DNA of 64,000 nt from NCBI RefSeq assembly GCF_016735515.1, contig NZ_JAERQZ010000001.1, forward strand, positions 3,770,746 through 3,834,745. The letters are read 5' to 3'. Below, in pieces: positions 45,776-63,766 of this stretch (position 1 is its first letter; each line of letters opens with the position of its first letter). This DNA is from Piscinibacter sp. HJYY11. Lineage in GTDB: Bacteria; Pseudomonadota; Gammaproteobacteria; Burkholderiales; Burkholderiaceae_C. Both the position numbers and the translations under genes were made by a program. The notes below the pieces were generated by a model. The model was not told where the DNA came from, did no database searches, and saw nothing but the letters and a program-made list of their open reading frames with translations.

Positions 45776-45784
45776 CGGGCCGCC

Positions 45785-45853
45785 GCGCCGGGCCGCCGCA
45801 AGCAAGGCCCGATCCCCTCGGGGAATCGCACGGCGTACTCGCCGTGCGAGGGG
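45785..45853 (+). repeat. Dispersed 69-bp intergenic repeat, copy 2
   Basis: Inverted counterpart of 2326-2394, starting GCGCCGGGCCGCC and ending GCGAGGGG. It includes a perfect 9-bp hairpin with a TACT loop (CGCACGGCG at 45827-45835, CGCCGTGCG at 45840-45848). It lies 9 bp after rpe and is probably its terminator and part of the pre-insertion chromosome. Confidence 0.65.
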
Positions 45854-45895
45854 AGTGGTGTAGACCAATAGAGTGTCCAGCCGTGCTCCCACGAC

Positions 45896-45903
45896 AGCGA
45901 CGT
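45896..45903 (+). other. Candidate left-end transposase-binding motif
   Basis: AGCGACGT here reappears in inverted orientation at the right side (ACGTCGCT at 55265-55272). Opposite orientation at the two sides is what TnsB sites would show, but an 8-bp match can arise by chance. The rest of 45854-46113 holds no gene I can support. Confidence 0.2.
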
Positions 45904-46113
45904 AACACACGCTCCCCAAAGGGGCATGATAGTTGTCGGTCGTGTGCCTCGACGTGCGCGCGCGGCCTGCAGGTACGTCAATAGAGATCCCAAGATCGGT
46001 AGCGCCGCTTTTTAGGCTGAGGCATTGGTGACCAAAACCGAAAAAATGCGCTGTTGAGCCGATTAGGGGCCTCCCTGGGCATTTGTCTCAGAGCGCTGCG
46101 CAGTGAGGTTGGG

Positions 46114-46142
46114 TTGCCTGCCCCAAGCTCGGCCGTTATAAC
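46114..46142 (+). promoter_or_regulatory. Sigma-70-type promoter for the tnsD-like gene
   Basis: TTGCCT (46114-46119), 17-bp spacer, TATAAC (46137-46142). Both hexamers are near consensus and the spacing is ideal. It lies about 95 bp before the tnsD-like ATG codons and drives toward them. Confidence 0.55.
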
Positions 46143-46246
46143 TAGACCAAGCAGTGCTGTGCGACTCGCTTAGAGCGTAGAACGAGGCGATTTGAATTCG
46201 CCGTGGCTTGCACCTAATGTGACTTTGAAGCAATCCATGCTCCAAA

Positions 46247-47965
46247 GTGCTCAAGACACCCTCGGTCGACCCATACTGGGCTCATACACCCTGCCTACCC
46301 GTGGGGGCGAATCTCTATACAGCGTCCATACTGGCCGCCCGAGGGAACTGCGCAAGTCCACTCCCCACTGCGAATGTTTTTTATGGGCGACCTACTGGAA
46401 CGCTAAACAGCTACGCGAACGGGGCGGCTTTTGTCAGCGAGCGGTACTTTCGGGGCGCATTGAGCGCGGAGGAGGTACTCGTTCGACATTCGCCCTTTGG
46501 CTACTACTCACTGGGCCTCAGCAACCGCGATCGTGAGTCTTGGTTAGGCCAACTCAGCAAGGGCGAGTTCGACGTCCATGACACAACGGCCCGAACGAAG
46601 TCGCGAGGGTTCAGCGAGCATTCCAAACGCTATCGCCGCGGCTTGGCTTGGTGTCCCATCTGTGCCGTCGCTGACGAGGATGAACGGGGTTTTGCATGCT
46701 GGTATTGGTGGCACCAATTCCCGTTCATGACTCACTGCCTTATCCACTTCGAGCCACTGGCGTACGCTTGTGCATCGTGTGGCTATGCGCTGGGGGACAG
46801 TCGAAGGTTTTACTTGCCGGGAGAACCTTGCAGGTTATGCGGTTCTCGCCAAGTGAGCAGGTTCTCCGACGCCATCAGCGAGCCCTGCGTCCAATTGCTG
46901 CGGGACGTTCATCGATGCTGCGTGGAGCAATGTCAAATCTTTCGTCCGCTTGCCTGGGAAGCGAAGCTACAAGCAGCGTGGGAGCAAGCGGGTGGCGTTG
47001 AGCAAGCAGTCGATGGCGCGATGCGGTGGCTCATCGAGAGATGGAATGTCGAGAAGATTGAAGACATTAGCGATGCGCTGCACACGAAGCTGACACCAAT
47101 GCACATCCGGTGTGCTGTGACGGCAAACCTTTGCGGGACGCCGTTGTTGTCGCAATTTTTGCTTTTTCCCGCCGTTGAACCTCTCGCGCCGAAGGTGGGG
47201 TTCGACGATGCCCCAGAACATCTTCGGCGGATCGCGGAAGACCGTGGTACGTCCATGCACACCATCGATCTATTACGGCAAGGACTTCCGGTAGAGGCTG
47301 TTCGCGCTGAGTCTGGCCTGCCGTCGGTGCACATGCGCAAGACGCTGCTTGAGCTTCGAAAAAATGGCGTGGCAAAGGCTCGCCCAAGACGCATTCGTTA
47401 TCCAAACTGTGTCCGGTACGTCGACGATGAGCAGCGCCGTGAGGTGTATGTGCGCCGACTTAAAGAGCAAGTCGCTGAACATCCCACTGCTTCTCGCGGA
47501 CAGATGTGGGACATGATGCCGGCGGCGATAGAGTGGTTGAAGAAGCACGACCGGGCGTTGCTGGATCAGTTACTTCCGCCCCGGGTTCGCCATGCCGCCG
47601 GCCATTGGAAGAATGCTGAAGTCAGCCCTGACAACATTGCGTTCGCGCGCAAGCGTCTGGTGGCGATCGCTGCAGTGTTCCGCTGCTCGACCCGAAAAGA
47701 GTTGAGTACTCGTGCTGCATCGCTTGTGAGTTGGCTTCGCAACCACGATGCAGCCTGGTTTGACACTCGCTTCCCCAGGCTGAGGCCCGTCGTGCTACGC
47801 CGCTCAGAAATCAGGGCGTCGTTTCGCTCGATCTTCATGGGGCAGACCGATGAATGCCCACTGATTGAATTCGGTTCCGACAGTCCTCAGTTGAAGTTCG
47901 CGACTGATTGGCTAAAGGCGCACGACACGGTGTGGCTCAATGAGCACAAGTCGACGTCACACTAG
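46247..47965 (+). CDS. tnsD: TniQ/TnsD-family target-selection protein (N-terminus probably frameshifted)
   Basis: 572 residues in the annotated frame. TniQ zinc-finger pattern: CPIC near residue 137, then MTHCLIHFEPL, CASC and CRLC. The C-terminal half carries three TnsD-type helical units with WLKKHDRALLD, WLRNHDAAWFD and WLKAHDTVWLN, thought to read target DNA. The canonical TniQ N-terminus (LPTRGGESLYSV) is in a different frame starting at ATG 46237, and joins this frame near 46325 if one base is removed. So the gene is either frameshifted or uses ATG 46247 with a divergent N-terminus. It lies next to rpe, as expected for a site-specific targeting protein. Confidence 0.82.
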   Translation: MLKTPSVDPYWAHTPCLPVGANLYTASILAARGNCASPLPTANVFYGRPTGTLNSYANGAAFVSERYFRGALSAEEVLVRHSPFGYYSLGLSNRDRESWLGQLSKGEFDVHDTTARTKSRGFSEHSKRYRRGLAWCPICAVADEDERGFACWYWWHQFPFMTHCLIHFEPLAYACASCGYALGDSRRFYLPGEPCRLCGSRQVSRFSDAISEPCVQLLRDVHRCCVEQCQIFRPLAWEAKLQAAWEQAGGVEQAVDGAMRWLIERWNVEKIEDISDALHTKLTPMHIRCAVTANLCGTPLLSQFLLFPAVEPLAPKVGFDDAPEHLRRIAEDRGTSMHTIDLLRQGLPVEAVRAESGLPSVHMRKTLLELRKNGVAKARPRRIRYPNCVRYVDDEQRREVYVRRLKEQVAEHPTASRGQMWDMMPAAIEWLKKHDRALLDQLLPPRVRHAAGHWKNAEVSPDNIAFARKRLVAIAAVFRCSTRKELSTRAASLVSWLRNHDAAWFDTRFPRLRPVVLRRSEIRASFRSIFMGQTDECPLIEFGSDSPQLKFATDWLKAHDTVWLNEHKSTSH

Positions 47966-49329
47966 GCCATGTCTCGGGTCGAACCGTCGTCGTCGCCGGC
48001 GACGACGTCCTGCAGGGCGAAGATTGACCGTTGCGCTGCGGCTCTTCCCGGTACGGATCTGAGCATCTGCTCCAGCAATTGGGGCACGTGCTTTCTCATC
48101 CACCGAAGATCTGAGTTGCATGCGAGCTCAATCTGATGGCGCCGAATATTGGGGCTCGCTGCGACTACCGCGGAGAGTTGCGCTACGCAATGCTCGAGGC
48201 GATCGTTTGTCGCCCGTTCTTGTCGTCTAGAGCGCAGTTCAGGCACATTGTCGAGCCACCTGAAGAGCGCTGAGCGAGGAAGCGCAAGCTGAGCAATGGC
48301 TTCTCCGTAGGTGTTGCACTCATCCATTGCATGATGGACGCTGGCTGGCGCCTCGCTCACCTGGCGCGGCCCATCGAACATTTCCAGTTGACCCGCGAGG
48401 ACGAGTCGCCCGTTCGCAGCGTCGCAGAAGGCAGCAACACAGTCCTCCGTCGACCGCCACTCCATTGCCGCCCAAAGCAGAGCCCAGCAAGCCGGGTAGT
48501 TGGTCTGTCTGCGCCAAAGTAGCGACGGCAGCCATTTGCCATCGGCTAGCGCCTCCAGTCCCCGGCCTACGGACCTGCAGAGCTCGGCCACCGGAGAGCC
48601 GGCGAACCAGGCCATCAATGCATCGTGACGCGTGCGCGAGGTGGTGTGAATGGTGCCCTGCTCGCGCAACCTGGAGAGGGACTCGCGCCGTAGCGCTGCG
48701 ATGTCGATGCTGGGTGAGGACAAGATGCCGCGTCCAATGGCCGCCAGCCTGACTGCGACGGTGTTCACGACAACGCTTGCCGTTGCTTCAGCGCCCACCT
48801 CCGCTGGCAGCTGCCACGTCTTCGTTCTGCGCGGAAGCATGCGAAGGGCGACGCCGTGGAGCGAGCAGATAAACGTGGTCGGACATTGGTGTTCAACGTG
48901 CCAGAAGGCACGACCCTCGCTTGCTTGGTCCCGCGCGACGCAGTCCATGCACAGCTTCAGGGGATGAGGAAGAACGCTGTTTCTAGGTTTGAGGCACAGG
49001 GCGAGCCGCCATCGGTCGCTGTCACGCGCGGCTAGCTCCGCCAGTCGCCGCTGGGCCTCGAGAGAGTGGAAGGGCCAGTAGTAGCCCCCCACCGTGTGTT
49101 GGCGGATTGCGTTGATGACCGTCGCCAGGTCGCTCTTGTTGACAAACGGCAGCCGGGCCAGCGCTGGAGGAAAGTCCGGCTGCCTTGCCGCATGCGCTCT
49201 CCCCAGCAGCTCTTCGGCCGTCCGCATGGAGTGCTGCGACACAGACGAGCGAAAAACAGCCGCGCACCAGCTGTATACCGTCTCGCCAGGAAGGATGCAT
49301 GAAGCCGCGATGGATGGGCTGGTGGCCAT
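47962..49329 (-). CDS. tniQ: TniQ-family transposition protein
   Basis: 455 residues. N-terminal TniQ signature ILPGETVYSWCAAVFR, zinc motif LCMDC with CSLHG about 30 residues later. The remainder is helical and lacks the tandem WL..HD units of the tnsD-like protein. TniQ bridges the TnsC ring to a target-recognising partner. It starts 8 bp after tnsC. Its stop codon (47962-47964) overlaps the stop of the converging tnsD-like gene, an unusually tight join. A second TniQ suggests two targeting routes or division of labour. Confidence 0.88.
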   Translation of the reverse strand: MATSPSIAASCILPGETVYSWCAAVFRSSVSQHSMRTAEELLGRAHAARQPDFPPALARLPFVNKSDLATVINAIRQHTVGGYYWPFHSLEAQRRLAELAARDSDRWRLALCLKPRNSVLPHPLKLCMDCVARDQASEGRAFWHVEHQCPTTFICSLHGVALRMLPRRTKTWQLPAEVGAEATASVVVNTVAVRLAAIGRGILSSPSIDIAALRRESLSRLREQGTIHTTSRTRHDALMAWFAGSPVAELCRSVGRGLEALADGKWLPSLLWRRQTNYPACWALLWAAMEWRSTEDCVAAFCDAANGRLVLAGQLEMFDGPRQVSEAPASVHHAMDECNTYGEAIAQLALPRSALFRWLDNVPELRSRRQERATNDRLEHCVAQLSAVVAASPNIRRHQIELACNSDLRWMRKHVPQLLEQMLRSVPGRAAAQRSIFALQDVVAGDDDGSTRDMA

Positions 49330-49337
49330 CTGGTGCC

Positions 49338-50822
49338 TTACGTTGCGGCCTTTGCGTTGCGACCGCGTTGCGCGAGGTCCTTCTTGTGCTGCTCGATCTT
49401 CGCGATGCTGTCCTGAAGCTCATTGACGTGATGAAGCGTGAGGCCCAGCGCTTCAGCGTCTTCTTTGGAGAGTCCTTGAATTTCCTTCAGCTTGTTGCGC
49501 GTGCGAGTGAGTTCGGCAGACACCCGCTGCTGCAGCTTCCTGAGCAGTTCCAGGACGGCTGAGCCGCTTGCGGCGTCGAGCTGAGCGACATCGTGCTTGG
49601 CGCGAAGACTCGGATTGCGCAGGCATTCTGTCGACGGCAGATCGAAATAGTGGTCCGAATTCGGGATTCCTTGTATCGCCTGACTGATGCTGGCAATCTT
49701 TTTCAGGCGTGGGGAATTGAGCGCTTCGTCATAGTCATCCTCCGATATCAAGCAAGGACTGCCACCTCTGCGTATCGCGGAGCGCATCACCTCACACCGA
49801 AGTGGCAAGAGGAAGCCTGGGATGCCCGCAGAGAAGTTGGTTTCAACTTCGCTGCGCCATGCGAGGTCAACCGCAAACCCGTCCACCAGCATGAACTCAT
49901 CAACACGAGGCACGAACTCTTTGGTCCACCAGGGGTCCGTTTGTTGGCCGGGCGTGAGCTCATGTACACCAGCAATGCTGAACCGCCGCATGACTTGGCT
50001 CAGGTTCATCATGTGATCAAAAGCCAGCGGATTTCCACACAACGCGACTGAGACCCCGAGGTTCATCAGGCTGAGGTAGAACAGGACAAATTGCAGGGCC
50101 CACTGGCTGTCGTTGAATGTCATCGACTGCTTCTCGTCGACGACCAGCAGTGCAACCCGATGATTGATCAGCGCTTTGCATACGGCGACCATCAGGATGT
50201 CGATGTTGACGGTCCTCTTGTGTTCTCCCGAGTAGTTGGTCCCGGCAACGCTGTCCAGTTCTTCCAGGATGCGGTGCAACAGGGCGCCTCTTGTTCCATT
50301 CGAAGGAAAGTCGACATAGAGGTAGGCGACCTGCCGCATGCCGTACCAGCCGTACTCTTCGCTGGCCGGGTGGTCCAACACCAGATGCTTGACCAAGACT
50401 TGAAGGCAGCGCTTGATCAGGCGTGTTTTCCCGCGCCCCGTGATGCCCGACACCAGCATCCCCGCACCATCCAAGCAGATCAACTGCCTCAACTGAAGAG
50501 TTGACCGTGCCGCACCGATGCGATTGGCATGAAGACGCGCTGCTCGTTGCAACGGGTTCATCAGGCTCAAAGATCGGCGCAGCAACTCCTGCACGCCCAT
50601 GAAGACTTCGAGGTTGGGCCCGCTGGGAATGAAAAGTTGCTCCGCGAACGGCAGAAGGGACTCGCGCTTCTGCAGCGGGATAGTCTTTAGATCTAGCGTC
50701 GACAGGGGGTTGTAGTTGAGAAGGGCTGGCACTTCCCCCAGTGTCACGAAGGGCCGGAGAACCCCAAATAACGGGTTGGGCCCGGTGAGCAGCGTCTCAG
50801 GGTGTTCCAGGCAATCGTTCAT
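49338..50822 (-). CDS. tnsC: TnsC-family AAA+ transposition regulator
   Basis: 494 residues from the ATG at 50820-50822, chosen because it overlaps the stop of the preceding small gene (ATGA); the frame extends 20 codons further. Walker A SGITGRGKTRLIKRC (residues 126-133 core), Walker B VALLVVDE (224-231) and sensor-like region NLGVSVALCGNPLAFDHM. In Tn7 the homologous ATPase polymerises on target DNA and activates TnsAB. The C-terminus is a coiled-coil (KLKEIQGLSKEDAEALGL). All key ATPase residues are present. Confidence 0.92.
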   Translation of the reverse strand: MNDCLEHPETLLTGPNPLFGVLRPFVTLGEVPALLNYNPLSTLDLKTIPLQKRESLLPFAEQLFIPSGPNLEVFMGVQELLRRSLSLMNPLQRAARLHANRIGAARSTLQLRQLICLDGAGMLVSGITGRGKTRLIKRCLQVLVKHLVLDHPASEEYGWYGMRQVAYLYVDFPSNGTRGALLHRILEELDSVAGTNYSGEHKRTVNIDILMVAVCKALINHRVALLVVDEKQSMTFNDSQWALQFVLFYLSLMNLGVSVALCGNPLAFDHMMNLSQVMRRFSIAGVHELTPGQQTDPWWTKEFVPRVDEFMLVDGFAVDLAWRSEVETNFSAGIPGFLLPLRCEVMRSAIRRGGSPCLISEDDYDEALNSPRLKKIASISQAIQGIPNSDHYFDLPSTECLRNPSLRAKHDVAQLDAASGSAVLELLRKLQQRVSAELTRTRNKLKEIQGLSKEDAEALGLTLHHVNELQDSIAKIEQHKKDLAQRGRNAKAAT

Positions 50823-51163
50823 GACTGCTCGCTGGCTGCCCCGCCAGCTGGACCCTTCACTGGCCCGGCAGCACTTGGCCACTCACATGACACTTTCCCC
50901 GCGTTGTATTCGATGATTATCTTTTTGCACTGCTCATCGAACTGAGCCGGCGTGAGCCAGCCTGACCGAGAAATTGACTCTGATCGGTGTCGGTTCAGGC
51001 AACCGGAATCTGCGAGCTGCAGCAGAAATAACCCAGGCACCAATCCAAGAAGCTCGCGCGTGGTGCTCGTTTGTAGGTAGTCGATTAAGGGGTTCGAGCC
51101 TGAGGCTAGGTCGTTGCCCTCCGAGCGAGGGCGTTGTCCGCCGATCGATGGCTTCTGTGTCAT
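50819..51163 (-). CDS. Unknown 114-residue protein encoded between tnsB and tnsC
   Basis: Starts on ATGA overlapping the tnsB stop (51160-51163) and ends on ATGA overlapping the tnsC start (50819-50822). This double coupling argues strongly for a real gene. Residues 24-55 look helical and hydrophobic (LIDYLQTSTTRELLGLVPGL), followed by WLTPAQFDEQCKKIIIEY and a Gly/Pro/Ala tail. No domain recognised. It may bridge TnsB and TnsC, or be a detached or accessory part of either. Canonical Tn7 has no gene at this position. Confidence 0.75.
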   Translation of the reverse strand: MTQKPSIGGQRPRSEGNDLASGSNPLIDYLQTSTTRELLGLVPGLFLLQLADSGCLNRHRSESISRSGWLTPAQFDEQCKKIIIEYNAGKVSCEWPSAAGPVKGPAGGAASEQS

Positions 51164-53523
51164 GTCACTTCTCCTTGAAGGAATGCCGCCATGGCGATTT
51201 CGACGGCCGTGGGTTTCGGCTTGGGTTCGGCGCCACCGGCAGCGGCTTGCCCGGCGGCCTCTGAAAGCTTCCCCAACAGGTCATCCAGCGAGTCGGCAGG
51301 GGACGCGGAGTCACGCATCACCTCGAGCTCGTCCTTGAGGTTGTTCTTCAGGGAGCTTCGCTGCGTGTTGCCGCCTGCAGACCGGCCTGCGGCTTCAACC
51401 TGCTGGGCCTTCTCCGTCCTTGCAGCGAGCTCGGTGTCCTTGCGGTCAGCCGCCTCTTCGGCTTGCGCCTGAACGTCGTCGTCTTCTCTGCGAAGACGGG
51501 AAGCACGAAGGTCCATCTGGAGGTCAAGGTAGTCTGTGAGGGTGAAGTCTCGGTTGAAGAGCGTGTCGCTGCGTCGATTGGCGAGCTTGAACATTCCGGC
51601 TCGGGTGGGAAGCCAGCATTCCGAGGGGCGCTCGGGGTCCATCCGAACGAACACTCGGATGGACTTCCCGCTTTTGTTGAGTTGGGCGAAGACCCCCGTC
51701 TTTGCCAGCTCTTCGCTCCAGTAGCGGAAGCGTGGCAGGATTACCCGGCGCTTACCGATCTTCACGACCAGGTGCACGCCCCGCTTTCGAATCACCGCTT
51801 CGTACTTGGGCAGACAGAAGGCCCTGAGGGACTCGAAGTTGTAGCTCAGCGACACGTCCCCACCGTGTTCGCGATACCAGTTGAAGATGTTGATGCGCGT
51901 GGGAACGATCCCTTTCATCAACATGGCGTCCGGTGCGAGGTCGGGCACCTCGTCAATGCAATTCCAGCGATACGCCCACTTGAGGAACCCTCGCATGTAT
52001 TCAACGCGATTCAACAGGGCTTCGCTGGCTGGTGATGCCTGCCCTGGACGGGTAATGCGCCCGTGTGTGTTTCCCGGCTGCTCGTGGTCATGGCCAGCTT
52101 GTGCGGCATGGTGGAGCGATTCGACAGGCCCCTTGCGTTCGCCGTGGCGCGGTGGCGCATATTCCATGCCGAACCCAAACTGCCCCTCTGCCTCGGTCAC
52201 CTCGTTGGCTTTCATTTCGCCGCAGTCGGTGAGGTGCAACCGGCACAACATGAACGGCATCCAACCTTCCGGAAGCTCGAGGCCCAGTTCCCGGTTCCAC
52301 CGCTCAACCTTGTCGGGGTCTGCTCCGTTCAGCAGGCACTGGAGCGCGGTGGCGGGAGACGGGCCATCCCATCCCAGGTACACGCCATAGACGACCTGCG
52401 ATTTCCCTTCCAGCAGGACGCTCCTGGTCATCGCTGGCAGCGCCTTGTACCGATGCCCCATGCGGGTGAGGTAGACGTCTGTCGAGGTGGCATCGAAGTA
52501 GGCGAGCGCACCAAGCGTGGCGACGCGGGCCTGTTCATCTCGGCCGCGCGTTTCTCGCTGCGCACGTTCATGCGGCATGAACAGCAGATCAGCGACGCCG
52601 TTCCCGGTGAATCGACGGCCCCAGCGCATGAACTGCCCAAAGGAAGGCCGCTTGTGCTTGGGATAGAGCTTGAAGCTTGTCTTGCCCGTGAGCGGATCCG
52701 TGTGGTGGAACGCGTACAGCACGGAGAGCATGATCACGTAGGCGCTTCGGGGCTTGGTGTTCTTGTCGATCAACATGTAGCCCCAACCGATGTTGCGCTT
52801 GTCCGTCTCCGTGAGCGGGTAGGGCTCTAGGCTTATCGGTCCCATGTCGCGCCAGTCGTTGCGTCGGCCCAGGCCGTTTTTCTGCGGTTTGGGAACACCG
52901 CGGTTGCCGCAACGCTCAAAACCGGGGATGAGGCTGTTGAGGCGGCCGTTCCCTGCGTAGAAGCGATTCAGCCAGCCTGACACGGTGTCGCACGTCACAC
53001 CGTGGTTGGCGGCAACGATCTCAAGTCGAGCCCGGAATTCGGTGTCTTGCAGCACCTCCAGCGGGCGCCTGGTCAGCCTTTGCTCGGGCGAGGAGTTGCG
53101 GCGCGCAGAGGCTTCCCAGCGTCGTCCTGGCTCGGGCATCTCTGTGGCCAGCAACGCCTGGACCGCAGCGTGGTGGTCGTCCCGCGCAGCGAGTGCCTTG
53201 GTCAGTCTTTCTTTTTCTGCCAGGGTATGGGCCACCGCCAGTCGATCAGCGTCGGACATGTCCTTCGGATCGTCCTCTCGCATGACCATCATGGCTGACT
53301 CGAGCACTGCGTCCACGACACAGTCAAAGGTGGTTTGCACTGCTCGTTTTTGATAGTGCTGCACTTGGTTCGTCTTGCCCTTGCTCTCGCTCATCTTTGG
53401 CAAGTCAACCCACAGCAACACGTTGCGCTCTTCATCCCAGTCGATGACCCGCCGCTTCCGGCCAAGCGGAAACGTCGGGGGCGTTGCCACGAGCACGTCG
53501 CCTCGCTTGAACGGCGGGTTCAT
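51160..53523 (-). CDS. tnsB: TnsB-family DDE transposase
   Basis: 787 residues. N-terminal DNA-binding helices, then an rve-type catalytic core with Asp344 (YFDATSTDVYL), Asp433 (HLTDCGEMKAN) and Glu468 (KGPVESLHH). Spacings of 89 and 35 residues match Tn7 TnsB (Asp273/Asp361/Glu396). A Mu-type beta-barrel follows and a charged C-terminal tail (ADRKDTELAARTEKAQQVEA) ends the protein, the part that contacts TnsC in Tn7. Start overlaps the tnsA stop by ATGA. It should nick and join 3' ends. Confidence 0.94.
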   Translation of the reverse strand: MNPPFKRGDVLVATPPTFPLGRKRRVIDWDEERNVLLWVDLPKMSESKGKTNQVQHYQKRAVQTTFDCVVDAVLESAMMVMREDDPKDMSDADRLAVAHTLAEKERLTKALAARDDHHAAVQALLATEMPEPGRRWEASARRNSSPEQRLTRRPLEVLQDTEFRARLEIVAANHGVTCDTVSGWLNRFYAGNGRLNSLIPGFERCGNRGVPKPQKNGLGRRNDWRDMGPISLEPYPLTETDKRNIGWGYMLIDKNTKPRSAYVIMLSVLYAFHHTDPLTGKTSFKLYPKHKRPSFGQFMRWGRRFTGNGVADLLFMPHERAQRETRGRDEQARVATLGALAYFDATSTDVYLTRMGHRYKALPAMTRSVLLEGKSQVVYGVYLGWDGPSPATALQCLLNGADPDKVERWNRELGLELPEGWMPFMLCRLHLTDCGEMKANEVTEAEGQFGFGMEYAPPRHGERKGPVESLHHAAQAGHDHEQPGNTHGRITRPGQASPASEALLNRVEYMRGFLKWAYRWNCIDEVPDLAPDAMLMKGIVPTRINIFNWYREHGGDVSLSYNFESLRAFCLPKYEAVIRKRGVHLVVKIGKRRVILPRFRYWSEELAKTGVFAQLNKSGKSIRVFVRMDPERPSECWLPTRAGMFKLANRRSDTLFNRDFTLTDYLDLQMDLRASRLRREDDDVQAQAEEAADRKDTELAARTEKAQQVEAAGRSAGGNTQRSSLKNNLKDELEVMRDSASPADSLDDLLGKLSEAAGQAAAGGAEPKPKPTAVEIAMAAFLQGEVT

Positions 53524-54557
53524 GCTTCACCTTCTTCGAAGACAAGGTCGCGAAGGCGTGCGCGAAGGCTGTAGCCACCATGGACCAGCGGCAGCCACGG
53601 TTGCAGGGGGACCGCAAGGTTGTGGTCGGTCTCCTGGTTCCACAGGCACAGCTCGTACGCTTGCTGCAGCCGCTCGGCCGGGACGTCATGGCGCCGGCGG
53701 ACTTCGGCAAGGAGCGTGCTGACGGGATAGCGGAACCCGTCCTCCCGCAGCACAGCGACCGTATCGGCGTAGACGCTGCTCTTTGCGAGACGCTCACGTT
53801 CGGCCCCGTTGAGCTTCGGCTCGATGGCTGCCAGGTTGATGGCGAGACCTTCTGGGACTGTGCCTGGCGGCATGTGGATGAATCGGATCCTCGCCTCTTG
53901 GAAATACCGCCGAAGCACCCGGCGCTTGATGTTGCGTGGCAGGGTGGGATCGGGCCAAGCACTCTTCGCACCGAGATCCACCGCGACAAGTTGATAGCCG
54001 ACATGGCAGGGCCAAGTCGTCATGACGTCAACGGTTTGCACGCAGGGAATCTTCAATTGCGAATAACAGGGCAGGCGGACCCCCAGGCTTTTTGCTGCGG
54101 CCGTCAAGCCTGGCTGAGAGGGCAGGTCGTCGCACCCCTGAAGACCGATGGCCGGATGGGGATGGCTCCATGGCCACACCGGGTATGAAAGGCGTACGTC
54201 GACCGCGCCAAGCCATTTCAGCCCGAAGAGCGAACCGCGCTGTGATCGTGAGAGCAGGTGGTGCAGGCCTGCCGTTGTCGGGTCGGGGGCATGGCCGACG
54301 TTGGAGACCGGCGTGGACACTTGTTTCGTCACAGGCGTCCAGGGCTTGTAGCGATGAAAATGGCCCTGCCCATAGCCGGCGCGGATCATCGCGAGCAGCT
54401 TATGGGGGGTCATGACGCTGAGGGTGTTGAACCTTGGGGCTTGTGGGGCGAGAAAGTTCTCGATGCCAAATGCAACCACGTCCCATTTGCTCCCTAGTGA
54501 AGGGACGCGTTCACGCGGGGCTGCGCTCCCGAAGAGGGAGCCTTCAAATCGTTCCAT
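53520..54557 (-). CDS. tnsA: TnsA-family protein, catalytic residues apparently lost
   Basis: 345 residues; GGAG lies seven bases before the ATG. Aligned by eye to Tn7 TnsA the anchors are clear: GYGQGHFHRYKPW, LHHLLSRSQ and DVRLSYPVWPW. Tn7 catalytic Glu63 falls on Gln106 (LLSRSQ versus LLSDLE) and Lys132 on Gly196 (VAVDLG versus AIQVK). Asp114 is kept (Asp177). An active TnsA cleaves 5' ends for cut-and-paste; this one probably cannot, which would make the element copy via cointegrates or leave TnsA a structural role. The extra N-terminal ~45 residues are unusual. Confidence 0.85.
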   Translation of the reverse strand: MERFEGSLFGSAAPRERVPSLGSKWDVVAFGIENFLAPQAPRFNTLSVMTPHKLLAMIRAGYGQGHFHRYKPWTPVTKQVSTPVSNVGHAPDPTTAGLHHLLSRSQRGSLFGLKWLGAVDVRLSYPVWPWSHPHPAIGLQGCDDLPSQPGLTAAAKSLGVRLPCYSQLKIPCVQTVDVMTTWPCHVGYQLVAVDLGAKSAWPDPTLPRNIKRRVLRRYFQEARIRFIHMPPGTVPEGLAINLAAIEPKLNGAERERLAKSSVYADTVAVLREDGFRYPVSTLLAEVRRRHDVPAERLQQAYELCLWNQETDHNLAVPLQPWLPLVHGGYSLRARLRDLVFEEGEA

Positions 54558-54813
54558 CGTGGGTCTCCGGTCGACCTGCTCCGAGCCTGACGAGGGTGTC
54601 GTCGCTGCGGCGTGGATGCGCCGCAGCGCTCTTCGCGGGTAAGGTGCTGGATGACCGCGTTTCCCAACGCGAGGGCCACGACGACTAGGACGGCAGTGAG
54701 TCGCCCGACACGGCTCGCTTGAGCGCTGTTGCCGGTGAGCCGGTCAAAGACCGGTGTATGAAGTCCTAGAAAAAACTTTGCAAAAGTGCGTCCGCGACGA
54801 CTATGCTGTTCAT
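54494..54813 (-). CDS. Small membrane protein split by a -1 frameshift (programmed or lesion)
   Basis: An ATG at 54811-54813 with AGAGGA seven bases upstream encodes MNSIVVADALLQSFF and then hits TAG (54766-54768). Shifting -1 at the T-tract continues LGLHTPVFDRLTGNSAQASR into a clear transmembrane helix (LTAVLVVVALALGNAVIQHL) and a basic tail to 54494, about 106 residues in all. Reading sense runs smoothly across the junction. It overlaps the tnsA start by about 60 bp. Either programmed frameshifting or a one-base indel explains it. No family recognised. Confidence 0.5.
54740..54775 (-). other. Candidate -1 ribosomal frameshift signal
   Basis: On the minus strand the heptamer T TTT TTC (54769-54775) sits in the correct 0 frame, is followed at once by stop TAG, and 14 bases beyond the heptamer comes a perfect stem-loop CCGGTC-TTT-GACCGG (54740-54754). 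This order matches programmed -1 sites. The spacer is longer than the usual 5-9 bases. Confidence 0.45.
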
Positions 54814-54846
54814 GTCGTTGTCCTCTGGGATAAGCGGTCGACGTCA

Positions 54847-54879
54847 GAGACGCAAGCGGCTTGTCCCCGCTTGCGTCTC
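54847..54879. terminator. Perfect 13-bp hairpin upstream of tnsA
   Basis: GAGACGCAAGCGG (54847-54859) and CCGCTTGCGTCTC (54867-54879) pair fully around a 7-base loop. There is no T-run on either side. It lies between the gp16-like gene and the split membrane-protein gene, and could attenuate entry of transcription into the tns operon. Confidence 0.6.
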
Positions 54880-54896
54880 GCCAACCTGTAGCAGCG

Positions 54897-55160
54897 TCAA
54901 CCTGGTGGTGTGCTCATAGGTCCTCCTTGGTCAAGAGAGGGTTTGAGCCCGAGTGCGACCGCCACGCGGTGCGATTGACCGCGCAGACATTTGCTGCGCC
55001 CTGCCAGAACGGCGTACACCACTTCGTGGTGAAAGCCGTGGGAGGCAGCCCAGTCCTTGATGACCAGCCCACGTTCACGAAACTGACTGATCGCGTCGGC
55101 CGCTGTGCGGACCGAGGTCGGATCAAAGGTGACATTGGCTGGCAAGTCGCGGTGGCTCAC
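54897..55160 (-). CDS. BcepMu gp16-like DNA-binding protein
   Basis: 87 residues from a GTG at 55160, chosen because GGAG lies six bases upstream; a TTG at 55172 is also open. The segment IKDWAASHGFHHEVVYAVLA followed by GRSKCLRGQSHRVAVALGLK matches the BcepMu gp16 helix-turn-helix family, small regulators found with Mu-like and Tn7-like transposition genes. The gene is oriented with, and just upstream of, the tns operon, and a palindrome overlaps its start, so it is a likely self- and transposition regulator. Confidence 0.8.
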   Translation of the reverse strand: MSHRDLPANVTFDPTSVRTAADAISQFRERGLVIKDWAASHGFHHEVVYAVLAGRSKCLRGQSHRVAVALGLKPSLDQGGPMSTPPG

Positions 55161-55161
55161 A

Positions 55162-55186
55162 TTGGACTCCAAAGCTGAGAGTCCAA
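55162..55186. promoter_or_regulatory. Palindrome at the gp16-like gene start
   Basis: TTGGACTC (55162-55169), 9 bp, GAGTCCAA (55179-55186): perfect 8-bp arms immediately upstream of the GTG start. Size and position fit a dimeric repressor site blocking transcription or translation of the regulator and possibly the tns operon. Confidence 0.55.
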
Positions 55187-55554
55187 CTTAGGTGAGCGAC
55201 GCATTGATTTCAAGAAAAGTTCTTAAAAATCAAACACTTGTGTGATGTCTTGGTTGCGCACAAAACGTCGCTACAAGACAAAAATGACGACAACAGGCTG
55301 AGAAGTGTCGCTATGAAGATCGGCTCGCGGCGTGTTGGTTGTCCCGTCTGTCTTGGTGAGACAAGCGTTCGGTTACTCGCGGAGAGCCTGTCTTCAGAAG
55401 ACACCCTTGCCACTCGGCGCTCCCATGTGAATCTCCCCTGAGAGCGAACGCCTGTTGCTGGCCAGCGGTCGCGCACAGAATGCGCGGCTCGCTCGCGGTC
55501 GGCGCGTCTTAACTGTTCCCGACGGAATGTTTTTCGCGCCGATTGGCAACGGGC
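55187..55554. other. Gene-free AT-richer spacer with possible transposon-end repeats
   Basis: No ORF here is convincing. The stretch 55261-55318 holds three related 16-18-bp motifs in tandem (CAAAACGTCGCTACAA, ACAAAAATGACGACAACA and AGAAGTGTCGCTATGAAG), spaced about 20 bp apart as TnsB sites are. The AT-rich part at 55206-55245 could hold the promoter of the gp16-like gene. If the motifs are end sites, the element would end a little to the right of 55318. Confidence 0.3.
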
Positions 55555-55896
55555 CTAGTCTTTGGCCCGGCTCGAACTGCTCGGCTTGGTGCCCGCCGCA
55601 CTAAAGCGCCTTCGCGCCAATGCATGCTCGACTTGGCGAACGACAGCATGGGCTTCTGTGTTGAGCGCTGCAGCCATCTTCATGATCACGAACAGAGTTG
55701 GTTGACTCTCCCCGCGCTCGACGCTTCCGCAATACGAGCGGCCGACTCGTGAATAGTCAGCCAACGCTTCTTGAGACATGCCGGCGGCCAGCCGGAGTTT
55801 GCGGATGACTTCCCCAACAGCCTGCGCGACCTCCGGGTCGAAGCTGCCGGCGCCACGAGGCCTTCCTGTTTTTGGTTTTAGGGGGCGCCCTGACAT
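55555..55896 (-). CDS. XRE-family helix-turn-helix regulator
   Basis: 113 residues from the ATG at 55894-55896; the longer frame begins inside the putative -10 box and is rejected. Helix-turn-helix: EVIRKLRLAAGMSQEALADY with SRVGRSYCGSVERGESQPTL. A basic leader (RPLKPKTGRPRGAG) precedes it. The start codon lies within a near-perfect palindrome, indicating autorepression. Confidence 0.85.
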   Translation of the reverse strand: MSGRPLKPKTGRPRGAGSFDPEVAQAVGEVIRKLRLAAGMSQEALADYSRVGRSYCGSVERGESQPTLFVIMKMAAALNTEAHAVVRQVEHALARRRFSAAGTKPSSSSRAKD

Positions 55897-55939
55897 ACGC
55901 CGGAGGGTCCGGCATATGAAATGAACGGTCCACACTATA
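55894..55939 (-). promoter_or_regulatory. Promoter and operator of the XRE regulator
   Basis: On the minus strand a -10 TATAGT (55934-55939) is followed by a palindrome with 11-bp arms, CATACGCCGGA and TCCGGCATATG (55894-55904 and 55908-55918, one mismatch, 3-bp centre). The operator covers the leader and start codon, so a bound dimer would block its own gene. Confidence 0.6.
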
Positions 55940-55959
55940 TAAAGGCGGAGCCGCCGCGG

Positions 55960-56289
55960 CTAATTTCGACTTCGGCGTGCAGGTCCGACGACCCCGATCA
56001 GTGGCTTGGATGGCGTGCCAGGGTGAATGGTCTCAAGCACAGGTGCGTCGCCGAGTCGTTGATCTAGCTCGCGCATGAAGGCAAGGAAATCGACGCCCAA
56101 CGCACGCAACCAGAGGCGAAGCTGAAGCACGTCAAGACGTCGCTCGCCAGTCTCCACGCGGCTCACTGTCGTCTGGTCGCGGCCAAGAAGCCTCGCGAGG
56201 TCAGCCTGCCTCAACTGGACTGACTCCCGGGATTGCCGCAGGAGTGTGAGGAAGACATCGTTGTGTCGGCCGTAGAGAGATTTCGACAT
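55960..56289 (-). CDS. XRE-family helix-turn-helix regulator
   Basis: 109 residues. Helix-turn-helix RESVQLRQADLARLLGRDQT with VSRVETGERRLDVLQLRLW, then a short C-terminal region (LGVDFLAFMRELDQRLGD). HipB/XRE-type repressor. Same strand and just upstream of the other XRE gene, divergent from the 135-residue unknown gene; the 190-bp spacer has a long inverted repeat. Confidence 0.85.
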   Translation of the reverse strand: MSKSLYGRHNDVFLTLLRQSRESVQLRQADLARLLGRDQTTVSRVETGERRLDVLQLRLWLRALGVDFLAFMRELDQRLGDAPVLETIHPGTPSKPLIGVVGPARRSRN

Positions 56290-56333
56290 GGCACCCTTTT
56301 CCTTGCCAGCCTACCTTCATCTCGCGCATATGC

Positions 56334-56374
56334 CGAATGAGCATCTAACTCCGAGCCAGCAGCTCGCTCATTCG
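56334..56374. promoter_or_regulatory. Inverted repeat in divergent promoter region
   Basis: CGAATGAGC (56334-56342) and GCTCATTCG (56366-56374), perfect 9-bp arms with a 23-bp spacer. Centred between the XRE gene and the 56478 gene; a candidate paired operator for the regulator next to it. A TATAAA at about 56429 may be the -10 of the rightward gene. Confidence 0.45.
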
Positions 56375-56477
56375 CGTTGCCGTTGCTGTGTGACTTCGGT
56401 TTACAGACACTTTCGCCTTTATAAAACGCAAGCCACCTTACCCGATGTTTGTTGCGTACGAGGGGTCTGAGGACCCA

Positions 56478-56885
56478 ATGCTGTCAGCGCTCGACCTTGG
56501 ATCGCTCCACTACCGTGGGATGGAGCTCTCCGTTCGACTGCCTTGGTACATCGTCACCTGCAAGGTAGACGACGATGGGCTCAAGCTGTTGCGCTCGTTC
56601 TGTTGTTCACGGGACTTTGATTTGATCGAGCTGCTGAAGACCCAGCAAGGCAGGGTGGTGGCGAGCATCCAGCGCTTGACACCTGCTCCCAGCGACTATG
56701 GCTGGGTCGCCTCAACGGTGATGCGTGTTTGGCAAGCCCGGGATGTCTCCGGCGATGTCGCTTTGGTCACCGAGGACGAACATGGCGTCGATTCTTGGGA
56801 CGGCGCGTTGAACAAGAGCGTTTGGAACGCTGAAGGTTGGTCGTTGCTCTTCGAGGCGCAGAGCGTCAACGTCGAAGCTGGCTAA
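56478..56885 (+). CDS. Unknown 135-residue protein
   Basis: Start chosen at the ATG 56478, with GAGGA just upstream. Soluble, acidic, tryptophan-containing (YIVTCKVDDDGLKLLRSFCC; VWNAEGWSLLFEAQS). No signal peptide, transmembrane helix or domain recognised. Lies 51 bp before the lipoprotein gene on the same strand and may be co-expressed. An effector, immunity or anti-defence function is possible but unsupported. Confidence 0.65.
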   Translation: MLSALDLGSLHYRGMELSVRLPWYIVTCKVDDDGLKLLRSFCCSRDFDLIELLKTQQGRVVASIQRLTPAPSDYGWVASTVMRVWQARDVSGDVALVTEDEHGVDSWDGALNKSVWNAEGWSLLFEAQSVNVEAG

Positions 56886-56936
56886 TGCGCGACAGATTTG
56901 AAGAGAGGGGCGGCCGCGTCGTACAAGGGAGCAGAC

Positions 56937-57806
56937 ATGGAGAAGATGAGAGAGAGTTCGCATGGTCAAGCTCTCCTGGGTGTGTTCGTTGGCTTGACGG
57001 TCGCAGCGCTCGTTGGGTGCGCAAATGTCGCTTCGCGCACTCCGGCCGAGGTTGTCGCCGGTGTCGCCAAGAACAGTGATCTGCGCATCACCTGGCTCGG
57101 CCCCGAAAGCGAAAACGAGCTTTTCGGCTTCCCCGCGATCGAGCGTCAGCTCGAACCGATCTACGAGAAGTGCCGTCAACAGCAAGGGGTCATGACGCCG
57201 ATACGGCAGTCATTGCGCTTTGCCGGCCCGTCCGTGATGCGTAACCACAAGCCTGAATTCGTTCGCAGCGTCACGACTGAGATCCATTGCAAGCAGGGTG
57301 ACCTGTACCTTTGGATGGCCAAGATCGACTACAACGATCACCGCTTTTACCAAGACATCCAGAACCGCGATCGCATCCAGCTCATCCTCCACACCAAGTT
57401 CGTGGCGGGTGAATCGCTCAACCCTCCTCCGCTTCCGCAGGATGAAGAGAGCAAGCGACAGCGAGCAGAAGCGAGGGCAGCTGCCGAGAAACGATGGGAG
57501 GAAGAAGCAGCTCAGCGGGAGCGGGAACGACAGGCCGAAAGAGTAGCGCTAGCCGAGAGGGAACGAGCCGCAGCCGAACAGCGAAAAGCAGAGCTTCCAT
57601 CGTTCAGGGCGCGACTCAAATCGGGCGATCGAGTCGGCATCTTGCATCCTCAGTTCCGATCCGTGTCAGCCATTGGCCTGGTCATCGATGTGAAGCCCGG
57701 CTTGGCGCAGGTTCAGTTCAGGTCCACGCCGAGCATTCTGAACCCCGACCCGAAAACTGAAACGCTGTGGTTTCAGCTGGAGCAGTTGGTTCAGCCCGAG
57801 CGGTGA
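56937..57806 (+). CDS. Lipoprotein with central coiled coil
   Basis: 289 residues; GGGAG precedes the ATG at 56937. Signal peptide with lipobox (VGLTVAALVGCANV). Residues 30-160 form a globular domain with two cysteines (YEKCRQQQG, EIHCKQGD). Residues 175-230 are a highly charged helix (ESKRQRAEARAAAEKRWEEE) predicted as coiled coil, and the C-terminal 60 residues look like a small beta domain (GDRVGILHPQFRSVSAIGLV). Envelope-anchored; function unknown. Confidence 0.8.
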   Translation: MEKMRESSHGQALLGVFVGLTVAALVGCANVASRTPAEVVAGVAKNSDLRITWLGPESENELFGFPAIERQLEPIYEKCRQQQGVMTPIRQSLRFAGPSVMRNHKPEFVRSVTTEIHCKQGDLYLWMAKIDYNDHRFYQDIQNRDRIQLILHTKFVAGESLNPPPLPQDEESKRQRAEARAAAEKRWEEEAAQRERERQAERVALAERERAAAEQRKAELPSFRARLKSGDRVGILHPQFRSVSAIGLVIDVKPGLAQVQFRSTPSILNPDPKTETLWFQLEQLVQPER

Positions 57807-57926
57807 GCCGGCCGAAGTAGCTTTGCGAGGTGCACATGAAGCGACGCCATGGCAATATCAAACAGCCAGTGAAACGATCCATAGGATCGGCAAGGCACTT
57901 CGCGAACCGGCATCTCCCGTGAGGCG

Positions 57927-58073
57927 GTGTTCGGCAGAGAACCGAAGACCAACGTGGTCGCCTATTGGCTCGACCCCTGCGACGCGACGAGGATCGTCCG
58001 CGTATCAGCGAACGGAACCAAGACGGTGGGCCGAATGACGCGTGAGAGTTTTCGGGCCATTCGCTCAAAGTGA
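57927..58073 (+). CDS. Possible 48-residue protein or gene remnant
   Basis: A protein-like frame (NVVAYWLDPCDATRIVRVSA then KTVGRMTRESFRAIRSK) ends 9 bp before the next gene. Only a GTG with GAGG too close upstream serves as start, and the frame is closed just beyond 57890. It may be the 3' end of a decayed gene. No homology recognised. Confidence 0.3.
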   Translation: MFGREPKTNVVAYWLDPCDATRIVRVSANGTKTVGRMTRESFRAIRSK

Positions 58074-58082
58074 GGAGTCGAC

Positions 58083-58307
58083 ATGCGTTTCGCCTGGATC
58101 AAGATTCTCCCCTCGGTGGAACTCCTAGCCCGACTACGGCCTGAGGAGGCGGTCCGCATCTTCGACAGTGGCGCGTTAGATGAAGAGATGCTCCGCGTTG
58201 CGCCCGCCGAGAAGCTGGCCGCCGGTGAGCGCTTCGATCAGGTGCGGCCTTTCTCATACGAGAGTTGGAAGTCACGCGGCACGCGGCGGGTCTCGCGAGG
58301 CGAATGA
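58083..58307 (+). CDS. Unknown 74-residue protein, first gene of antitoxin-like/AAA+ cluster
   Basis: GAGGAG lies six bases before the ATG. Helical, acidic N-terminal part (SVELLARLRPEEAVRIFDSG) and a basic tail (WKSRGTRRVSRGE). It is followed after 3 bp by the antitoxin-like gene, and thence the AAA+ ATPase, so the three look like an operon. No family recognised. In toxin-antitoxin terms it could be a small partner, but there is no toxin motif. Confidence 0.6.
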   Translation: MRFAWIKILPSVELLARLRPEEAVRIFDSGALDEEMLRVAPAEKLAAGERFDQVRPFSYESWKSRGTRRVSRGE

Positions 58308-58310
58308 CCT

Positions 58311-58739
58311 ATGCCATTCGAACTCTTGTCGACTGATGATTTCTTGGTTGAAGAGATGGCCGCGCACCTCGGCTTAAGTTGCGAACAGGTGGTGCAAAGA
58401 GAACACGCGGGTGATCTGTTTTCGTATTGCAAGCAGAGCAGAGGACAGCAGCGGCTCTACCCCACTTATCAGGTTGCGCTGGCCAACAGCTTTCCTGACC
58501 TTCTGCAGCGAGCAAAAGCGGCACTCGAACCCAACACCGTGCAGGTCCACTGCTTCTTTACTCAGCGCGACCCTGACTTAGCGGGTCTGAGCGTCAGAGA
58601 GGTCTTGTCAGGGCGTCCACGCGAGAGTCTCAAGCTGAATAGCCTCGCGTCGTGGCTGCTGTCTCTCCCACTCACGAGGCGGGTAGACGCTGTTCTGAGC
58701 GCTTTGGAGCGCGAACGCGCCCATAGTGAAGCTTGGTAG
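58311..58739 (+). CDS. MbcA/ParS/Xre antitoxin-like protein (DUF2384-type)
   Basis: 142 residues. An N-terminal helix-turn-helix-like region (LVEEMAAHLGLSCEQVVQRE), a RLYPTYQ motif, then a C-terminal helical segment (FFTQRDPDLAGLSVREVL) resembling the toxin-binding domain of MbcA/Xre antitoxins of RES-type toxins. No RES toxin is nearby. It overlaps the frame upstream of the AAA+ ATPase and sits 26 bp before that gene's chosen start. Assignment is by motif resemblance only. Confidence 0.6.
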   Translation: MPFELLSTDDFLVEEMAAHLGLSCEQVVQREHAGDLFSYCKQSRGQQRLYPTYQVALANSFPDLLQRAKAALEPNTVQVHCFFTQRDPDLAGLSVREVLSGRPRESLKLNSLASWLLSLPLTRRVDAVLSALERERAHSEAW

Positions 58740-58765
58740 TGTCGTTCGACCACAAGGGCGCCGGC

Positions 58766-59746
58766 ATGGCAAACGGTGATCACCTCAAGGCACTGCTGCG
58801 CTCCCACGCAGAGGGCGACGATCGCCACTTCTACTCGGTCGCCATGCAGATGGCCGCCCACGAGGCCAAGCAAGGCCACGGCAAGCTCGCCGAAGAGCTG
58901 CGCGAGCTAATCGATGCTGCCAAGTCTCGCCGGCACGGTGCGCCGCTCGAAGGCGCTGCGATCCCCATCACCCGGCCCAAGGGCGAACTCGCCTCCCTTC
59001 TGAGCGTCTCGTACCCGTCGCGACGCTTGTCCGACATGGTGCTGGCGCTGCCGGTGCTCGAGAGCCTGCAGCAGGTCCTGAAGGAACAGCGGCACTTGAG
59101 CAAGCTGCGCAGCCACGGCCTCCACCCCCGCCGCAAGTTGCTACTGGTCGGTCCCTCCGGCACCGGCAAGACGATGACGGCGGCCGCGCTCGCCGGCGAG
59201 CTGGGCATCCCGTTGTTCGTGGTGCGCCTGGACTCGCTGATCACCAAGTTCATGGGCGAGACCGCGGCCAAGCTGCGCCAGGTGTTCGACGCCGTCGCGT
59301 CGACGCGCGGCGTTTATCTGTTCGACGAATTCGATGCCATCGGCAGCCAACGTGGCATGGCCAATGACGTTGGCGAGATCCGCCGCATCCTGAACAGCTT
59401 CCTGCTGATGATCGAGCAGGACGAGTCGAGCAGCGTGATCGTCGCCGCCACCAACCATCCCGACATCCTGGACGAGGCGCTCTTCCGGCGCTTCGACGAT
59501 GTGGTGCAGTACCACGTGCCGTCGGCGGACGAGGTCAAGGCCTTGCTTCGCATGCGTCTGGCCAACTACCTCAAGTCGCCCAAGGCGCTTGCTGAGCTCG
59601 CCGAGGTGGCCACCGGGCTCAGCCATGCCGAAGTCGCCAGGGCCGTCAGCGACGCGATCAAGGAAGCGGTGATGCACGACCAGAAGAATGTCGCAGCCGC
59701 TGCAGTGCAAGACTTCCTCAATCGACGCCGAGTCAGGCGCTATTGA
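58766..59746 (+). CDS. AAA+ ATPase of the subtilase-partner type
   Basis: 326 residues from the ATG at 58766. An N-terminal helical domain with a typical start (MANGDHLKALLRSHAEGDD) precedes a classic AAA module: Walker A GPSGTGKT, Walker B VYLFDEFDAIG, sensor 1 VIVAATNHPD and arginine fingers RRFDDV. Relatives are usually encoded right before an S8 subtilisin-like protease and this pair occurs in mobile and defence-like contexts. Here no protease gene follows; the frame after 59746 is unrelated. An orphan or re-partnered ATPase is inferred. Confidence 0.88.
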   Translation: MANGDHLKALLRSHAEGDDRHFYSVAMQMAAHEAKQGHGKLAEELRELIDAAKSRRHGAPLEGAAIPITRPKGELASLLSVSYPSRRLSDMVLALPVLESLQQVLKEQRHLSKLRSHGLHPRRKLLLVGPSGTGKTMTAAALAGELGIPLFVVRLDSLITKFMGETAAKLRQVFDAVASTRGVYLFDEFDAIGSQRGMANDVGEIRRILNSFLLMIEQDESSSVIVAATNHPDILDEALFRRFDDVVQYHVPSADEVKALLRMRLANYLKSPKALAELAEVATGLSHAEVARAVSDAIKEAVMHDQKNVAAAAVQDFLNRRRVRRY

Positions 59747-59930
59747 GTCACCCGGGGCCGCGATAAGCGTACTGTCGGCCTTTCCGGGCTTCTTGGCTTG
59801 GATAGTTCGGGGGTACGCAAGCCGACTAGCAGCAACCGACCGGCTGCTGGATGCTACGCCTACCCGTGGCCACCTGGGAAGTAGGCCACCGACGAAAGCA
59901 AAACGTGGCGAGAGTTGCGGTCCGGTACCT
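59747..59930. other. Spacer after the AAA+ gene, no gene seen
   Basis: Holds short GC-rich runs and no ORF with coding character or ribosome site. The expected S8 protease partner of the ATPase is missing here. A deletion junction or an element boundary could lie in this stretch, but no repeat marking one was found. Confidence 0.4.
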
Positions 59931-60158
59931 TCAGGCGATGGCCTGCAGCCAAGCGCGCGGCCTGGCGTAGGGCCGCGACCGTTCGTCGCGCATTCGCCTT
60001 CGCGCCTCGGTGTCCAGGTGCCCAGCATCTTCCTCGACTGGTACCCGGTCCAACAGCTCCAATGCCTCAGCCACGATCCGATTCTTTTGGTTGGCCCACA
60101 AGGCGTAGATCCTTCGCCACTGGGCATATGCGCTTCTAGGCCTCGCTGCGTCCTCCAA
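59931..60158 (-). CDS. Possible 75-residue protein or C-terminal gene fragment
   Basis: The minus-strand frame reads naturally (AQWRRIYALWANQKNRIVAE; VPVEEDAGHLDTEARRRMRD) to TGA at 59931-59933. Only a TTG at 60156-60158, inside the end of the kinase gene, offers a start. It could be a coupled small gene or the remnant of a gene truncated by rearrangement. No family recognised. Confidence 0.35.
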   Translation of the reverse strand: MEDAARPRSAYAQWRRIYALWANQKNRIVAEALELLDRVPVEEDAGHLDTEARRRMRDERSRPYARPRAWLQAIA

Positions 60159-62319: not shown

Positions 62320-62372
62320 GAGAAACTTCCCGCCTAGCCAAGGCGCGCGCCGCGGCAGCCCAGGAGTTGGAA

Positions 62373-62600
62373 ATGGTTGTCCCGGCACCGTTTGTCCCCC
62401 GCCCCGATGTGTGGAGCTATGTCTATGCCCCAACGGAAGACGGAAGGAACTTTGCGGTCTTGGTTGGGGGCGATCCGACCCCCATTGTGACCCTGAGATT
62501 TGAAGAGAACGCCAAGAGGATTGTCAGCACGGGCAACTTGACCGGCTATCCAGATATCGCTGCACTAGCAGCTGACGACAAGGGCGAAGTGTGGTGCTAA
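62373..62600 (+). CDS. Unknown 75-residue protein
   Basis: GGAG lies six bases before the ATG at 62373. Beta-rich sequence (VWSYVYAPTEDGRNFAVLVG; IVTLRFEENAKRIVSTGNLT), ending VWC. No motif recognised. It starts divergently from the kinase gene and converges with the ketosynthase gene 8 bp beyond its stop. Confidence 0.6.
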   Translation: MVVPAPFVPRPDVWSYVYAPTEDGRNFAVLVGGDPTPIVTLRFEENAKRIVSTGNLTGYPDIAALAADDKGEVWC

Positions 62601-62608
62601 CGCTTCGG

Positions 62609-63745: not shown

Positions 63746-63749
63746 GCCG

Positions 63750-63766
63750 TAATTGTTTCGCAATTA
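63750..63766. promoter_or_regulatory. Palindrome upstream of the ketosynthase gene
   Basis: TAATTG-TTTCG-CAATTA: perfect 6-bp arms, 5-bp centre, ending 5 bp upstream of the ketosynthase ATG. A candidate repressor or activator site. Confidence 0.45.

Follow-up and report, generated by a model that had tools for sequence, protein, structure and literature searches.

A Tn7-like element of Piscinibacter sp. HJYY11 encodes a TnsA in which two of the three catalytic residues are replaced

Introduction

In Tn7-like elements, TnsA sets whether transposition proceeds by cut-and-paste or by copy-and-paste, and whole branches of these elements are devoid of it. What becomes of transposition when tnsA is kept and its catalytic residues are not? 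The question is raised by a locus of Piscinibacter sp. HJYY11 (assembly GCF_016735515.1, contig NZ_JAERQZ010000001.1, positions 3,770,746 to 3,834,745 of the forward strand), a stretch of 64,000 nucleotides that we call the window and whose coordinates are used throughout, also beyond its end. There, tnsA (53520..54557, minus strand; 345 amino acids, aa) and tnsB belong to a mobile element of 125,047 bp. A working definition of Tn7-like elements (PMC11406308) asks for TnsB and TnsC together with TnsA, a TniQ protein or both, and the element encodes all four.

Results

The catalytic Glu and Lys of TnsA are replaced

Compared with the sequences of the PDB using phmmer, the protein has Tn7 TnsA as its sole match (1t0f, 1f1z; E 8e-5), and a profile built from its relatives aligns with Tn7 TnsA over both of its halves (E 5.7e-17). 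Both the sequence and the fold are thus those of a Tn7-like TnsA, as the earlier note had proposed. In the profile alignment, columns 106, 177 and 196 fall opposite the Glu, Asp and Lys of Tn7 TnsA, which we take to be its catalytic Glu63, Asp114 and Lys132. The corresponding codons, all on the minus strand, are CAG (Gln, relatives having Glu; 54240..54242), GAC (Asp, retained; 54027..54029) and GGT (Gly, relatives having Lys; 53970..53972), and two further codons of interest encode D194 (GAT) and K198 (AAG). The alignment and the codons together bear out the earlier claim that two of the three catalytic residues are replaced (Q106, G196) and the Asp kept (D177). On its sequence, the protein is a TnsA homologue that lacks the catalytic Glu/Asp/Lys set, and it does not follow that it is a TnsA nuclease. 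We rejected a misread or shifted frame as the cause of the missing lysine: GGT is three changes away from AAA/AAG, and the absence of the ENKP motif from the other frames (by eye) speaks against a compensated frameshift.

The replacements are private to this TnsA

The earlier note had asked whether homologues conserve the Gln and the Gly. They do not, and keep Glu and Lys instead. In an alignment of 46 TnsA rows besides that of the element (A5, from which the fragments P0015 and P0016 were left out), Glu is present in 46/46, Asp in 46/46 and Lys in 45/46, the sole exception (P0041) having a Thr at the column and a Lys beside it. A second survey of 28 open reading frames from 36 TnsA loci, a few of whose rows are copies of one gene, gave Glu in 27/27, Asp in 26/26 and Lys in 24/24 of the readable rows. 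Two plasmid relatives, the partial sequence L011 and the two fragments add Glu in 5/5, Asp in 4/4 and Lys in 4/4. Column 106 is therefore Glu in all 78 readable rows of relatives (some of them duplicates), and the TnsA of the element is the sole row without it. The lysine at position 198 is not special, because 5 of the 46 relatives in A5 have one at the same column.

The nearest proteins are 40-41% identical, and the two found in the plasmid search, both with Glu, Asp and Lys, are 29% and 27% identical. The phage search found no TnsA relative, and the search of viral contigs returned 22 stretches, none of which was confirmed. The named genomes with relatives (Polaromonas, Variovorax, Aquabacterium and a Burkholderiales metagenome-assembled genome) encode catalytic proteins wherever the residues were read. 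Since all the related TnsAs that were read are catalytic, sequence comparison places the loss of Glu and Lys as a separate event within the Tn7-type branch, private to this lineage.

Near-invariant positions of the nuclease region have changed

Is this more than general divergence? At columns fixed in the other 22 rows of a smaller TnsA alignment (A2), the element departs at 11 of 30, and the other rows at 0-5 of 19-24. Using a looser rule in A5, it departs at 12 of 39 and the others at 0-6, excepting the two most distant rows, P0041 (17/40) and P0042 (17/41), where several of the departures are gaps. Ten of the 12 departures in A5 lie within residues 97-230, i.e., the nuclease region (10 of 27 fixed columns, with 1 of 7 in the N-terminal part and 1 of 5 in the C-terminal part). 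When the three proteins were compared in the same seven elements, fixed columns were altered more often in TnsA (13/40) than in TnsB (3/37) or TnsC (4/39), with a Fisher p of 0.0035 that serves as a guide value because alignment columns are not independent. The three distant elements of the seven depart at 5-7 of 32-34 columns in TnsA, 7-15 of 41-49 in TnsB and 5-8 of 40-43 in TnsC. Columns conserved in the four nearest elements show no excess of TnsA over TnsB (TnsA 46/122, TnsB 83/221, TnsC 44/149), and the branch of the element is long in all three trees (1.76 for TnsA, 1.45 for TnsB, where its position is unsupported, and 0.96 for TnsC). Judging from these alignments, the overall rate of TnsA is not much above that of TnsB, and the oddity is the change at positions that are otherwise near-invariant.

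The codons give some indication of the time involved. Three base changes each are needed at codons 196 and 212, and at least two at codons 162, 167 and 209. Because several pocket codons are thus two or three bases away from the ancestral residue, the loss of catalysis would be old if these changes came after it. Neutral evolution simulated from the tnsA of the Burkholderiales metagenome-assembled genome (L010) left 7, 1, 0 and 0 of 200 copies without a stop at 80, 70, 60 and 50% identity. That tnsA is open and coupled to tnsB (by an ATGA overlap) therefore suggests selection for a function other than that of the pocket, or a rebuilt pocket, or a loss that came after most of the divergence.

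The partners of TnsA resemble those of Tn7

The neighbouring tnsB (51160..53523, minus strand; 787 aa; 7pik, E 2.6e-18) has its DDE residues at D344, D433 and E468, in columns that are invariant in the TnsB alignment (A3), which confirms the intact triad that had been noted. Its family profile matches Tn7 TnsB at 3.4e-66 (7pik) and the TnsB of 8aa5/7svw, presumably of type V-K, at 2.4e-5 to 2.6e-5. On the same strand, tnsC (49338..50822; the listed frame extends to 50882, with an ATG at 50822) matches the Pfam families TniB (1.4e-8) and AAA_22 (4.6e-12), and its family profile has Tn7 TnsC as the nearest among solved structures (8.6e-48). The suggestion that the element bridges Tn7 and the Tn5053 or type V-K elements finds no support here: among solved structures, the closest matches of its TnsB and TnsC are the Tn7 proteins, and all related TnsAs that were read are catalytic.

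The element has paired ends at the rpe-gph junction

The ends of the element were located through a common core, AATAGAG, which occurs at two sites of the window and in repeats that adjoin tnsD in the G075 relative. The element starts at 45856, occupies the window to its end (45856..64000) and continues to coordinate 170902 (G000:C1:3816601-3941647). Its left end (45856..45990, plus strand) has two putative TnsB sites, with the core at 45867 and 45980, TnsB binding being inferred, and its right end has the core in reverse at 170821, 170865 and 170885. Each terminus reads TGG(N8)AATAGAG and is bordered by GGGAG (left copy 45851..45855; right copy 170903-170907, beyond the window). Paired ends, repeated cores resembling TnsB sites (putative) and a 5-bp duplication, as in Tn7-like elements, are thus all present. 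The Variovorax soli relative (L009) has a similar terminus (by eye), and the core is also found at the end of the G075 element. Inverted-repeat searches for ends within the window gave nothing convincing, and an initial idea, which placed the right end immediately upstream of tnsA, was dropped once the core led far outside the window.

The insertion lies between rpe and gph, the right flank being the start of gph (a HAD hydrolase by Pfam). Ten other genomes of the genus were searched with a query joining the two flanks, and in 5 of them rpe and gph are adjacent, with no element (one match over the whole query in G550; two pieces 28-45 bases apart in G544, G547, G548 and G549). The two genes are about 7 and 10 kb apart in G543 and G545, and on different contigs in G119, G546 and G551. 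This TnsA is absent from all 10 genomes, and in the genome of HJYY11 itself such a TnsA and such a right end were each found once. The G+C content per 5-kb step is 0.54-0.65 in the element vs 0.67-0.70 in the three steps upstream.

Some features of the site deserve mention in their own right. A palindrome some 80 bases long (45776-45855; z -2.6 as folded DNA) ends at the insertion point and has many copies in genomes of the genus, among the matches listed; the target may be this repeat instead of rpe. The gph frame (170878-171555; L058:16624-17301) now starts at a TTG within the right end, so that the transposon end appears to supply its first codons. The idea that rpe is a target common with the G075 element was abandoned, as that element lies about 15 kb from rpe, beside a reductase-like gene. 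No paper linking Tn7-like elements with rpe was found in the open-licence literature.

Discussion

A proposed replicative route with a non-cutting TnsA

How might such an element move? The reading that we favour, at a probability of about 0.58, is that the transposase retains TnsA as a component that does not cut and that the element moves through cointegrates. In its favour are the loss of Glu and Lys in this TnsA only, the altered near-invariant columns of the nuclease region, the stop-free gene, and precise ends at a site that is empty in other genomes. From these we infer that the nuclease activity is lost, that TnsA has a structural role, that the mode is replicative and how the product is resolved. 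The nuclease pocket would have been lost (Glu to Gln, Lys to Gly, with further fixed residues of the nuclease domain altered) and TnsA retained because it supports TnsB and TnsC structurally or activates them. TnsB, with its DDE intact, would cut the 3' ends and join them to a target picked via TniQ/TnsD and TnsC. With no 5' cleavage, replication would turn the strand-transfer product into a cointegrate. Recombination by RecA, or by the tyrosine recombinase of the element, could then resolve this to a simple insertion flanked by a 5-bp duplication. There is experimental precedent: a TnsA with a mutated active site leads to cointegrates (PMC8188705), and active-site mutations abolish cut-and-paste and spare replicative transposition (PMC8649781). 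By analogy with these mutants, the element should form cointegrates. The observed simple insertion with its duplication does not decide the mode, because both routes finish with it.

Several observations weigh against this reading. The TnsC profile match to the PDB spans positions 15-435 of 494, and the TnsA-binding tail of Tn7 TnsC is not listed in it. Special conservation of the C-terminal domain of TnsA was looked for and is absent, agreement with the consensus being 31/60 there, 49/102 in the nuclease part and 30/45 in the N-terminal part. A search of the genome gave no serine resolvase, nor was a cointegrate relic seen, the genome having no second right end. A resolvase is a typical though not universal feature of the branches that lack tnsA (PMC8649781). 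The element does contain a tyrosine recombinase with a DUF3701 domain (156993-158678), whose kind is common on plasmids (1943 of 72,556 records). Matches to DUF3701 occur in 3 of the 8 searched genomes of relatives and never on the contig that holds tnsA, so that no resolvase is common to the elements of the relatives, and for this reason the recombinase may be plain cargo. Finally, the pocket changes may be late and postdate this insertion.

Such a late loss is the basis of a rival explanation that we consider unlikely, in which the element was inserted with an active TnsA, lost the activity by decay and is now stuck. The single copy in the genome and the lack of this TnsA in the 10 congeneric genomes agree with it, and the departures of TnsA at fixed columns resemble relaxed constraint on the nuclease. 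Yet all tns frames are open and coupled, the ends and the duplication are intact, and the departures of TnsB (3/37) and TnsC (4/39) are no more than would be expected from the range of the nearest relatives (1-3 of 35-37 in L007, L010 and L009). Moreover, changing several pocket codons by two or three bases takes time, during which tnsA has stayed free of stops.

An objection of another kind is that the protein still cuts, through D177, D194 and a lysine at 198 (or none), as a rewired site of the PD-(D/E)XK type. These nucleases vary at the Lys, D177 is retained, position 194 has an acidic residue (D194), and K198 is the lysine shifted by two that the earlier note had itself raised. We find this improbable, as the Glu present in every readable row is also gone, the lysine at 198 is shared with some relatives and hence no new acquisition, and in the model the strand ends at 194 and a turn starts with 198. 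Least credible by far is help in trans, with 5' cuts made by the TnsA of a second Tn7-like element of the same genome. A TnsA of 228 aa with Glu, Asp and Lys (by eye) is indeed encoded in a tns-like operon (G000:C1:3686833-3687519), but it is of another type (228 vs 345 aa; its locus, L001, is missed by the A5 profile at 1e-3), and the TnsB and TnsC encoded with it are far shorter (623 and 293 aa).

Other genes of the element and its surroundings

The minus strand has the order tnsA, tnsB, orf114, tnsC, tniQ. The orphan frame orf114 (50819..51163, minus strand) fills the gap between tnsB and tnsC exactly, with an ATGA overlap with each; none of 17 candidates proved to be a homologue, and tnsB and tnsC directly abut in L007 and L010, where orf114 is missing. 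The tniQ gene (47962..49329, minus strand; 455 aa) matches Pfam TniQ above the cut-off (2.4e-9). A tnsD-like gene on the plus strand (46247..47965; 572 aa) matches TnsD (2.9e-7) and TniQ (2e-5) with scores below the cut-offs (30.3 vs 32.4 bits and 25.7 vs 27 bits). Upstream of tnsA, a frame at 54900-55187 (minus strand) resembles a short helix-turn-helix protein, and similar stretches precede tnsA in L007, L009 and G075 (all by eye).

The cargo includes RHS-like genes with type II secretion/pilin-like genes (68324-83189, L014; by eye) and, near the right end, a pair resembling the anti-phage IetA/IetS (161472-165286; L058:7218-11032). A lone IetA-like ATPase lies in the window (58733-59746), and 715 bases of it recur with 96.5% identity near 83.7-84.4 kb. 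The second tns-like operon (G000:C1:3680739-3687519; L016:3740-10520), where gene names other than TnsA were given by eye, also holds a frame of 619 aa and a TniQ-like frame of 552 aa, and adjoins subtilase-like and AAA genes. In G075, tnsB is split near residue 347 by an insertion of about 2.9 kb with three other frames (L012:14461-19122).

Place among known systems and significance

The element resembles Tn7 (1f1z, 1t0f, 7pik, 8glu) in its tnsA-tnsB-tnsC operon with TniQ/TnsD genes, in the TnsA fold and the TnsB DDE, and in a 5-bp duplication beside a conserved gene. It differs in the missing Glu and Lys, in the extra orf114, in the rpe-gph site and in its 125 kb. The nearest elements, in Polaromonas jejuensis (L007), V. 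soli (L009), the Burkholderiales metagenome-assembled genome (L010) and G075, share the order tnsA-tnsB-tnsC-tniQ and have TnsAs that are 34-39% identical, but these keep Glu, Asp and Lys. With Tn5053 and type V-K CRISPR-associated transposons it would share a replicative route in which TnsB is the sole active nuclease. Unlike these TnsA-less elements, it has a tnsA, present and open, a TnsB nearest to that of Tn7 and a separate origin, and no resolvase is common to its relatives. The engineered active-site mutants of Tn7 and Tn6677 (PMC8188705, PMC8649781) are similar in having an altered TnsA with an intact TnsB, and on the favoured reading the element would function as they do; it differs from them in being natural and in having two residues gone. 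A natural loss of the TnsA catalytic site was not found in the open-licence literature, within the parts available of PMC10293859, PMC8649781, PMC8188705, PMC13228271 and PMC11406308.

We advance more tentatively the broader idea of a natural Tn7-type lineage in which TnsA is a pseudo-nuclease that only licenses TnsB, and in which a 125-kb element inserts at one fixed junction of genes and is spread through replication; orf114 may have come in with the change. If the favoured reading is true, a natural element would separate the structural role of TnsA from its cutting role, and the switch of transposition mode could be tested on a natural example. This would also be relevant to transposase tools, where the purity of the products is controlled by TnsA.

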